Positions 34,891-38,452 of a stretch of DNA of 64,000 bases are shown piece by piece (position 1 is the stretch's first letter; each line of letters starts with the position of its first letter). A program made the position numbers and the translations under genes. Where the stretch lies: assembly GCF_026130175.1 (NCBI RefSeq), contig NZ_JAIGNI010000027.1, positions 1-64,000 of the forward strand. The letters run 5' to 3'. This stretch comes from Lyngbya sp. CCAP 1446/10 (GTDB taxonomy: Bacteria > Cyanobacteriota > Cyanobacteriia > Cyanobacteriales > Microcoleaceae). The notes under the pieces were generated by a model that saw only the letters and a program-made list of their open reading frames with translations, was not told the DNA's origin and did no database searches.

Positions 34891-35112
34891 AAATGCGGGT
34901 GCCTTGAATTGGGGACAGATCGGGTAAGCTGGCGGTGTGGGATGAGTGTGACAAAAGTTTACACTCAGAATCTTAACTAAATTTAACTTAACAATGCACG
35001 ATCGGGCAAGATGATGACGATCGTCGCGATCAAGAAAAAGTTAGGTTAGTTACCATAAGGGCGATCGTCCCGAATATAATGTTTGATGCTGATTTCGATA
35101 CCAATCTAGGTA
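34891..35112. other. Intergenic region between ftsH and the structured RNA
   Basis: No gene is seen. It should hold the promoter of ftsH (minus strand) and possibly that of the downstream RNA/actin unit. Several GATCG words but no clear operator. Confidence 0.5.
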
Positions 35113-35581
35113 AAGTTAGAAGAATCGCCGCAAAACCCACTGTCTTTAAGCGCGGCAGTGTCAAGGGATAAGGCGTCAGGAACCTCAGCCCTGACGGCAT
35201 GAGGCTTGAAAGAGAAATCTAGCAAGCCGTTCTGACCAGCCTAAGTCTTAACTGACTACGTTTTTTGAGTCACGACACCGGGCGGATGCTTAGCTAGTCC
35301 CCTGCCATGTCATTTGCAGTTAAACAGTTTCAAGGTCACTGAAACAGTGCTGCAAGTCTAAAAAGCTCAGAAAACATTGGCCGACAAGCTAACTTTACCC
35401 CGCAAGGGAGGCTCGAAAGAGCAAAATGCTATGCGTACAGGATTGGGAGACTTGAAACGGTAACTGTCCCGTTGAGAGTGCAACACAAAAGCACACCGAA
35501 CCAACCAATCCCAAGGCGGTAGTATATCCAAAACAATAATAAAGCCGTCCTAGAAGGACGGGGTTTCTACCCATTTTTCTG
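35113..35581 (+). ncRNA. Large structured RNA candidate 5' of the actin-like gene
   Basis: About 470 noncoding bases are packed with complementary segments. CGTCAGG/CCTGACG (35174-35180, 35190-35196) has a loop CCTCA that can pair with TGAGG at 35200-35204 as a pseudoknot. Others are GGCTTG/CAAGCC (35203, 35223), CTAAG/CTTAG enclosing TGACT/AGTCA (35253, 35268), and TTGCAG/CTGCAA enclosing GTTTC/GAAAC (35314-35355). CCC-GCAA-GGG and GCTC-GAAA-GAGC are GNRA hairpins (35399-35422). GGATTGG/CCAATCC (35440, 35505) encloses two hairpins. CCGTCCT/AGGACGG (35545-35561) closes the 3' end, and the next ATG is at 35582. The 3' hairpin hard against a start codon is the layout of HEARO/omega RNAs of IscB elements, but no IscB gene is present. 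The 5' boundary is uncertain. Confidence 0.7.
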
Positions 35582-36664
35582 ATGACAACTAGACAGCTTG
35601 TTCCTAATTCGGCTATGCTGACGCAGCAGACTAAGATCGCTTCTCACAAATCGATTATTAGTGCTGATTTGGGTCGTACAGCAACTAAAGCTTGCGTGAG
35701 TCGCAACCCAAATGGTGTTGTATTCATCCCTGCCAACGTGGCTGCGATGCCCGTCGAAAAGGTGCGGGGCGGCAGCTTTGAGTCAAAAGCAACAGACCCT
35801 CTGTTGGATATGTGGCTGGAGCACCAAGGCAAGGGGTACGCCATCGGCCAACTGGCCGCGGACTTTGGCGCTAATCTCGGCGGCGCTGACCAGTCGAAAG
35901 TAGTAGATGCTTTGGTTAAGGTTTTTTCCTGTGCTGGATATTTCCAAATGAAGGGCGAAATGGCAGTAGTGCTGGGTTTGCCTTTTTATTCGCAGGATCA
36001 GTTTGAGAAAGAAAAGGAAGAGATTATCAGCCAACTGCGCTCTCCCCACGTTGTGATCTATCGCGGCGAACGTTTGGAAATTGACATCCGCCACGTTTGG
36101 GTGATGCCGGAAGGATTCGGCAGCCTAATTTGGTGCGAGGCTCAAGACAACAAGGAGTTTTCGCCGGAGTTGCCGGAACTGTCGGTGGCTGTTGTCGATA
36201 TCGGACACCAAACTACCGATTTGTTAATGGTCGATCGTTTCCGGTTCGCCCGCGCGGCTTCTAAGAGCGATTCCTTCGCCATGAACAAGTTCTACGAACA
36301 AGTTGCCTCAAAGATTCCGGGCGCAGACCCTCAATCTCTGTCTTTACTAGAAGCGGTGAATAAGCCGGAAGGCCAACGTTTCTACCGTCCTAGAGGAGCG
36401 ACTAAGCCGACTAATTTAGATCCGATTATTAAGGATTTGCGGGAGGCTTTCGCTAACGAACTGTCCGAACGTTTGGTGCAGTGGCTGCCGGAACGGGTGA
36501 CGGATGTAGTTCTGACTGGCGGTGGCGGCGAGTTTTTCTGGGAGGTTCTCCAACCTTTGCTGAAAGACGCCAATCTTAAGGCTCACTTGGCTCAGCCTTC
36601 TCGGAAAGCTAATGCTTTGGGACAGTTTATTTATGCTGAGGCTCAGCTAGCCACGATAAAGTAA
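35582..36664 (+). CDS. ParM/StbA-like actin ATPase
   Basis: The 360-residue actin-superfamily protein has phosphate-1 loop ISADLGRTATK (Asp29), phosphate-2 loop VAVVDIGHQTTD (Asp206) and adenosine motif LTGGGGEFF (312-319). Other conserved stretches are VVFIPANVAAM, GYAIGQLAADFG and VVLGLPF. The closest known class is plasmid ParM/StbA and Alp segregation actins; cyanobacterial chromosomes carry such genes too. A ParR-like gene follows 20 bp downstream. The likely role is filament-driven DNA segregation or positioning. Start is uncertain: ATG 35582 has no ribosome site and follows the structured RNA directly; ATG 35615 is an alternative. Confidence 0.85.
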   Translation: MTTRQLVPNSAMLTQQTKIASHKSIISADLGRTATKACVSRNPNGVVFIPANVAAMPVEKVRGGSFESKATDPLLDMWLEHQGKGYAIGQLAADFGANLGGADQSKVVDALVKVFSCAGYFQMKGEMAVVLGLPFYSQDQFEKEKEEIISQLRSPHVVIYRGERLEIDIRHVWVMPEGFGSLIWCEAQDNKEFSPELPELSVAVVDIGHQTTDLLMVDRFRFARAASKSDSFAMNKFYEQVASKIPGADPQSLSLLEAVNKPEGQRFYRPRGATKPTNLDPIIKDLREAFANELSERLVQWLPERVTDVVLTGGGGEFFWEVLQPLLKDANLKAHLAQPSRKANALGQFIYAEAQLATIK

Positions 36665-36684
36665 CGCATTAAGGCTTGAACCCT

Positions 36685-37200
36685 ATGGCACTGTGGGCAA
36701 AAAATAAGGCGAATTTCTCGGTGGCGTTTACGGAAGATGCTGCGGATCAAACTTTGCTGGCGGCTATTGAAAAAGAGTTGGCTTTTACGAAGTATCAGAC
36801 TTTCAGCAATCTCTGCAAGCAAGCTTTGTGGCAGTTTTTGTCTGTATCTGAGTCTCCTATCTCTACAGATAGCTCTCAGCGGTTGGAAGAGCGTATTGCT
36901 GAACTTGCGGTCAGATTTGCTGAGTTTGAGCGCAATGTTTCTGCTGAGGAATTAAGCCGTTTGGAGGGACTGGAACATCACCTGAGTCAATTGGGCGCAC
37001 AGTTGGATCAGTTGCAGGGGAGTGTTAACAGTAAGTTTGCTCAAGTTTCTTTTGCCCAAGTTTCAAAAGTAGTAGAGCCTGATCCGATTGAGTCTGAATC
37101 TGTAGCGAATGATCTAGTTTCTGACGCTGAGGTTGCTCCTCGTCGGGAGTCCGATCCTTTATTGGAGCGTTTAAGTTCTTTGTTACCGCAAGATTTCTAG
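36685..37200 (+). CDS. ParR-like ribbon-helix-helix adaptor
   Basis: The product has 171 residues from ATG 36685 (AAGG at 36671); a TTG at 36676 is less likely. The N-terminus (KANFSVAFTEDA, then LLAAIEKELAFTKYQTFSNL, CKQALWQFL) fits a ribbon-helix-helix DNA-binding fold with the TFSNLCKQAL helix pair. Residues 65-115 are a coiled coil (RLEERIAELAVRF, LEGLEHHLSQLGAQLDQL), and the tail is acidic and unordered, ending LLERLSSLLPQDF, a possible actin-binding peptide as in ParR. It is encoded directly after the actin gene, as parR follows parM. Function inferred from fold and order. Confidence 0.72.
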   Translation: MALWAKNKANFSVAFTEDAADQTLLAAIEKELAFTKYQTFSNLCKQALWQFLSVSESPISTDSSQRLEERIAELAVRFAEFERNVSAEELSRLEGLEHHLSQLGAQLDQLQGSVNSKFAQVSFAQVSKVVEPDPIESESVANDLVSDAEVAPRRESDPLLERLSSLLPQDF

Positions 37201-37317: not shown

Positions 37318-37385
37318 GGAAGAAGGAAGAAGGAAGAAGGAAGAGGGAAGAAGGAAGAGGGAAGAAGGGAGAGGGGAGAGGGAAA
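37318..37385. repeat. GGAAGAA heptamer tandem repeat
   Basis: About nine units of GGAAGAA with GGGAGAA and AGAGGGA variants. Variable-number arrays of this kind are typical of filamentous cyanobacteria. Confidence 0.88.
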
Positions 37386-37420
37386 AATTGCCAAATTACC
37401 AATTATCAATTACCTCGATA

Positions 37421-38346: not shown

Positions 38347-38452
38347 GTTATTAATTGGGAATTGGGAATTGGGAATTGGGCATTGGGCATTGGGCATTGG
38401 GAATTGGGCATTGGGAATTGGGCATTGGGAATTGGGCATTGGGCATTGGGAG
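38347..38452. repeat. TTGGGAA/TTGGGCA heptamer array
   Basis: About 14 tandem seven-base units alternating TTGGGAA and TTGGGCA, between the coiled-coil gene start and mgtE. It lies in the 5' leader of the coiled-coil gene. Confidence 0.9.

Follow-up and report, generated by a model that had tools for sequence, protein, structure and literature searches.

Why does a large structured RNA stand directly before an actin gene in Lyngbya sp. CCAP 1446/10, and why does it stop exactly where the gene begins? The window, by which we mean the whole 64-kb stretch of DNA that was analysed, holds about 470 noncoding bases ahead of a gene pair that a sequence-only reading had taken for a ParM-like/ParR-like segregation pair, with the RNA either belonging to the actin system or stemming from an ORF-less HEARO element that had landed before the gene and now supplied its leader.

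Identity of the genes and of the RNA before them

We identified the two genes by NCBIfam profile search, FcmB scoring 648 bits against NF052678 (cut-off 300) and FcmC 164 bits against NF052682 (cut-off 90), and the two equivalogs lie adjacent to one another, as in an FcmBC cell-shape locus. A PDB search with FcmB returned CorM (9rmi, E 2.3e-152) as the sole relative and Pfam ALP_N matched within the actin ORF; FcmC matched no structure in PDB. On the strength of these matches and of the abstract of PMC12645912, the supposed segregation pair becomes a cell-shape pair. Rod shape in Nostoc punctiforme requires both FcmB and FcmC, and fcmB derived from a plasmid partition system, according to the accessible text of that report (PMC12645912). 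This ancestry is what a plasmid-type parC centromere or ParMRC module has in its favour; with the actin at 46.9 bits against a ParM equivalog cut-off of 417, FcmB and FcmC both passing theirs, and no direct or inverted repeats of at least 12 bases in 34891-35174, in keeping with the earlier remark that iterons are missing, we rejected it as next to inconceivable.

Table 1 Features around the start of fcmB, with coordinates in the window
Feature	Position	Strand	Basis or remark
TATAAT, possible -10 box of the native fcmB promoter	35075..35080	+	upstream of the insertion
Native fcmB leader with hairpin-like CACTGTC..GGCAGTG	35113..35174	+	kept in element-free relatives
16 nt at the omega-RNA guide position, TGTCAAGGGATAAGGC	35159..35174	+	use as guide putative
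Whole ORF-less HEARO element, 407 bp	35175..35581	+	filled versus empty orthologs, other copies
HEARO (IscB omega-RNA scaffold), RF02033	35175..35398	+	Rfam match, covariation
Module A, structured RNA of 98 nt at the IscB position	35426..35523	+	covariation, no Rfam match
Right-end hairpin CCGTCCT-AGA-AGGACGG	35545..35561	+	similar ends in other copies
ATGA, TAM-like target motif (fcmB start codon + A)	35582..35585	+	
fcmB, actin-like cell-shape protein (CorM)	35582..36664	+	NF052678, PDB 9rmi, Pfam ALP_N
fcmC	36685..37200	+	NF052682; ORF opens at TTG 36676, first ATG 36685

The large structured RNA directly before the actin gene was borne out as HEARO, which matched RF02033 with 144.2 bits (E 4.1e-30, cut-off 83, model positions 1-211) and was the sole gathering-level Rfam match within the window. 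Over 71 copies, 24 of the 37 predicted pairs change on both sides and 82 of 2625 cells are broken. Compared with 100 shuffled versions of itself, the 407-nt element folds better by 5.0 sd, and no shuffle came as low. The two GNRA hairpins described before were also found, their loops read in the sequence as GCAA (35402-35405) and GAAA (35415-35418). IscB, the nuclease served by HEARO elements, is the ancestor of Cas9. HEARO itself guides HEARO/IscB nucleases as their omega-RNA, as stated in the accessible part of PMC9755519.

Comparison with 27 same-genus orthologs, seven of which were aligned, set the borders of the element. Its end, CCCATTTTTCTG, touches ATGACA, the start of fcmB, placing the border at the ATG itself (35581|35582) and not 20 bases before it, and the 470 or so bases, although structured as claimed, are not a single RNA but a native leader followed by inserted sequence (Table 1). 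TATAAT upstream of the insertion is kept in all seven aligned orthologs; as a -10 box it is weak, since a consensus promoter scan did not list it. A terminator scan picked out the right-end hairpin, as a terminator-like structure of the minus strand. Further along the window, at about 37318-37390 and 38350-38450, short tandem-like repeats of GAAGGAAGA and ATTGGGAATTGGGC were read in the sequence between genes.

The element contains no IscB in cis. It derives, as a non-autonomous form, from an IscB (IS200/IS605-type) element and is made up of HEARO, a structured module and a right-end hairpin. The same genome has 13 HEARO matches against one IscB (RRXRR) match, which lies elsewhere (C124), together with seven Y1_Tnp matches of which one is a short fragment and one carries a stop. 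Among the sources of the related IsrB is one named 'watsonii', which we take to be Crocosphaera watsonii. The TAMs published for IsrB are NTGA or NTG, watsonii and Dolichospermum included (PMC9581776, accessible text), and by analogy with these the ATGA that opens fcmB would be the TAM.

Filled and empty alleles of fcmB and rplR

Among the 27 same-genus fcmB orthologs the HEARO element is present in four, where the 16-nt TGTCAAGGGATAAGGC continues into HEARO. In a further 19 the element is absent and the same 16 nt (11 exact, seven with one mismatch, one with two) run on into ATGATA; the other four, more divergent orthologs (L060-L063) gave no match to TGTCAAGGGATAAGGC. Together with the strong HEARO match, the relatives without the element identify it as an insertion. 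The same counts bear on the possibility that the HEARO RNA works within the actin system or regulates it. Its presence before fcmB in four orthologs and the remnants or similar ends in the four divergent ones would favour such a role, but the 19 orthologs without it, and the presence of the same element before unrelated genes elsewhere, led us to reject this part of the sequence-only reading as very improbable.

The four divergent orthologs retain different pieces before fcmB. These include a partial HEARO with the whole of module A (L060), part of module A (L062), a right end alone (L061) and an IS605-like end (L063). All four end flush at the same fcmB ATG with two types of end, so that more than one insertion has probably taken place at this start codon. 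An Rfam search of nine other loci including these four gave just two sub-cut-off microRNA matches, both in L063 and taken as chance.

A stretch of 37 bases (ATGATAATGG...TTTCA), found between two ATGA motifs in the empty alleles, is missing from the filled fcmB alleles, so the fcmB copy is not itself a clean start-codon insertion. It presumably landed at the first ATGA (ATGATA) with subsequent loss of the 37 bases, or else was rearranged in some other way. In L038 and other empty alleles a 15-codon upstream frame, read by eye and beginning with ATGATAATGG, opens in this 37-nt leader and runs across the start of fcmB in another frame.

A clean junction (TAACA|ATGAAG) was found at rplR. Here 26 of 29 genomes are empty, with AAGAAGTAACA or a near variant followed by ATGAA, and in the three filled genomes (L247, L248, L269) the HEARO element lies between these two sequences, in the ribosomal-protein operon between rplF and rplR. 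The rplR copy is thus inserted without target duplication beside a short fixed motif, and at both fcmB and rplR the 5′ flank of the element equals the sequence next to the TAM in the empty alleles, as expected of an omega-RNA and its target.

In a tree of fcmB and part of fcmC, the allele in the window groups with five empty ones (98/96), apart from the remaining three filled alleles, which form a clade of their own (100/100); this is read from the drawn tree, as the printed group count (one HEARO change) compares only with L060-L063 and was not used. At diagnostic sites, numbered as alignment columns, our allele is of the empty-clade type in 11 of 12 cases from -555 to -243, of the filled-clade type at -121, -62 and -12, and from +98 onwards of the empty type in 25 of 27 cases, with one filled and one neither. 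The element therefore seems to have arrived with little flanking DNA, the left edge falling between -243 and -121 and the right edge before +98. Against homing, the target in the recipient clade has a single mismatch to the guide, at -12. Such a patch fits RNA-guided cutting and copying, and plain homologous recombination leaves the same patch.

Contact with start codons across the family

HEARO matches (411) and RRXRR matches (127), fragments included, were found in 29 genomes of the genus, with both present in every genome. The loci studied are mostly the best-scoring of the 411 rather than a random draw, and gave 125 rows in which the start of HEARO is complete, with some places represented twice; 26 of the rows have IscB downstream. 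After deduplication, 72 ORF-less sites with a recognisable right end remained. Seven ORF-less loci were left out by hand, namely two at contig ends (L080, L158), three without an intact right end (L094, L118, L185), one with intron-like sequence (L149) and one with ATGG after the right end (L083). The script missed the right end in six (L084, L111, L117, L128, L129, L183), of which L111, L128 and L129 look flush by eye and stand outside the 72.

At 48 of the 72 sites an ORF of 75 codons or more starts at the abutting RTGA, ORF length serving as a proxy for gene annotation; at least one orthologous pair escaped deduplication (L112/L132, mnmA), without which the count is 47 of 71. By comparison, in 464 kb of the same genome such an ORF starts at 21.6% of RTGA sites overall (p 3e-16) and at 15.4% of those outside gene bodies (p 2e-22); in 664 kb from four genomes of the genus it does so at 386 of 2323 sites outside gene bodies (odds ratio 10, p 3e-20). 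IscB-bearing copies were flush in 14 of 24 cases, a set drawn from 40 fetched of the 127 matches, with right ends picked by eye, 16 loci dropped and duplicates kept. A first, partly truncated sample (3/12) had hinted that IscB-bearing copies differ from ORF-less ones, which was rejected once longer flanks gave the 14 of 24 (Fisher p 0.47). Beyond the genus but within the same order, 34 ORF-less copies had a patterned right end and 13 of these were flush, against a background of 14% in one such genome (p 4e-4), a fraction below that in the genus (p 0.007); ten more lacked the patterned end, and two of these (L305, L333) are flush under a looser rule. The sequence-only reading had held that a strong HEARO match together with relatives lacking the RNA would make this a chance insertion. 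Insertion it is, but chance is not the whole story, given that start-codon contact recurs across the family far above background.

The 72 sites cannot speak for the motif, as the right-end finder required RTGA. A separate count of 34 right ends, which did not presuppose the motif, can; 30 of them are followed by RTGA, the other four by CTGT, CTAT or CCTA. The ATGG after the right end of L083 argues against a strict RTGA rule. HEARO is reportedly integrated before ATGA or GTGA (Weinberg 2009).

Most of the abutting ORFs carry a Pfam domain (E up to 1e-5), often beginning at the first residues: 38 of the 50 that reach 50 codons or more, with FcmB uncounted, and 39 of the 48 that reach 75 or more, with FcmB included. 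The three tested ORFs of 50-74 codons had no such domain. Named by interpretation of these domains, the hosts include SecG, YbaB, alanine dehydrogenase, argininosuccinate synthase (ArgG), CP12, trigger factor, GrpE, MnmA, PsbQ, a phycobilisome protein, ribosomal L13 and L18, class II tRNA synthetases, heme oxygenase, Psb27 and Crr6, among others.

The RTGA motif overlaps starts of the form ATG-A and GTG-A but explains only part of the excess, since the background sites are RTGA already. Weighting by local base composition raises the expected flush fraction to about 38%, a partly circular figure that is rather too high, and 48 of 72 still exceeds it (p 6e-7); for the IscB-bearing set the excess over this expectation is weak (p 0.03). 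Split into thirds by divergence, from youngest to oldest, the flush counts are 14/24, 15/24 and 19/24. The rise is what would be expected under selective retention, in which elements insert at any RTGA and those flush with the starts of needed genes are kept, either as imprecise loss is impossible at a start or as the element end makes a good leader, the remaining copies decaying or being purged; hosts that often look like housekeeping genes also agree with it. The trend is not significant (p 0.24), however, the excess over background is present even in the youngest third (p 5e-6), which favours an insertion bias over slow selection, and the IscB-bearing copies show a similar excess (14/24). 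We therefore regard retention as unlikely to be the main cause, if still a serious contender, and the non-significant rise with age leaves room for insertion bias and selection to act together.

Retention might also act through transcription. As the guide position lies outside the element so must the promoter, and if the omega-RNA needs that of a host gene, copies would survive in sense 5′ leaders, RTGA making some of them flush. The flush copies are indeed sense-oriented, though by construction of the test. Nine of the 24 non-flush copies lie within 200 nt of a sense ORF start and 15 do not, no excess over backgrounds of 704 and 1233 (p 1.0), which disfavours a mere need for transcription; sense-leader retention is unsupported as the cause of the excess and we consider it improbable. 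Most likely the start-codon preference is an insertion bias, due partly to RTGA and local context and partly to a further factor.

A stronger form of this bias would make HEARO/IscB elements start-codon specialists, the NTGA motif approximating the code of initiation codons and a further feature of translation starts steering integration, an idea that we find rather doubtful. Were it true, each copy would carry a guide directed at the start of the host gene's counterpart in relatives that lack the element, the genome would amount to a library of guide RNAs against the start regions of housekeeping genes, and empty alleles would be driven to conversion with host genes given a new structured leader. 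IF-3 is the factor that checks start codons. The PLMP domain of IsrB and IscB is described as a possible remote IF-3 relative in the accessible text of PMC9581776, which may be coincidence.

Extra modules, a possible homing cycle and related systems

We identified two further structured RNAs in the ORF-less elements. Module A, unmatched in Rfam up to E 5 when the region after HEARO was searched, shows changes on both sides in 13 of 29 pairs across an 18-sequence alignment in which 97.3% of cells pair, a covariation score reached by none of 500 shuffles. It has matches in 28 of 29 genomes of the genus (further copies include L025:1752-1850 and L145:554-651), and 26 of 30 fetched loci have a full or partial HEARO just upstream. 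Module B, also to the right of HEARO (e.g. L024, L031, L072), consists of two hairpins with the common loop CAACCATA, and seven of its 12 predicted pairs change on both sides. By pattern search, module A is present in 26 and module B in 37 of the 72 ORF-less elements, the remainder having neither. At 40 IscB loci the profiles of both modules match the right-end part alone and leave the module part unmatched, indicating that ORF-less elements carry other structured RNA where IscB would be.

Two observations concern related sequences. In L149 a HEARO copy is followed at once by what we read as the apparent start of a group II intron. Nine places without a HEARO match (L013, L015-L020, L022, L023) share the right-end hairpin, and in five of them the end abuts ATGA, with L015 and L020 lying before ORFs of 170 and 374 codons.

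The best explanation overall, which we hold to be probable, is a non-autonomous IscB element that may home by means of an omega-RNA used by IscB in trans and most likely has an insertion bias towards start codons. From the fcmB promoter a transcript would run through the native leader and guide position, then HEARO and module A, and on into fcmB, the 16 native bases before the element serving as the guide. IscB supplied from elsewhere in the genome (C124) may bind this omega-RNA and act in trans, with the empty allele as the predicted target. As the guide joined to ATGATA is the sequence of the empty allele, the RNA would direct cutting of, and copying into, such alleles, and the filled allele would be immune since HEARO separates guide from TAM. 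The U-rich end of the element may provide a landing site for the ribosome. An ORF-less HEARO before the gene was thus rightly proposed as to identity and position, the transcription of a leader from it being presumed.

Should the preference for start codons be real, HEARO elements remodel the leaders of important genes, and RNA-guided homing could be tested in the many filled and empty pairs that they provide in nature. The authors of a Limnospira study asked for the exact locations of introns and HEARO RNAs to be examined for functional effects (PMC8400943, accessible text). The FcmBC/CorM cytoskeleton (PMC12645912; PDB 9rmi) supplies the fcmB and fcmC that host the insertion here; in Nostoc punctiforme a pair of start sites lies upstream of fcmB and the accessible text mentions no inserted RNA. 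PATEs, non-autonomous IS605 derivatives, are likewise free of transposase, with near-terminal palindromes beside a short target, but the accessible text on them (PMC3119063) does not mention omega-RNA and has no occurrence of 'start codon'.

We found start-codon contact and the extra modules nowhere in the literature searched, which lay outside the founding HEARO paper and most subscription papers. HEARO, standalone omega-RNAs and IS605 derivatives are all known kinds. Standalone trans-acting omega-RNAs are reported from Ktedonobacter racemifer (Altae-Tran 2021), reportedly with numerous omega-RNA loci and few IscB genes in one genome, as in the genome studied here; start-codon contact is not known to have been reported there, whereas it is common here. 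Compared with the HEARO/IscB omega-RNA (RF02033), the element before fcmB matches all 211 model positions, and its 16-nt flank joined to RTGA restores the empty target as expected, but it lacks IscB and carries in its stead a 98-nt module and right end.
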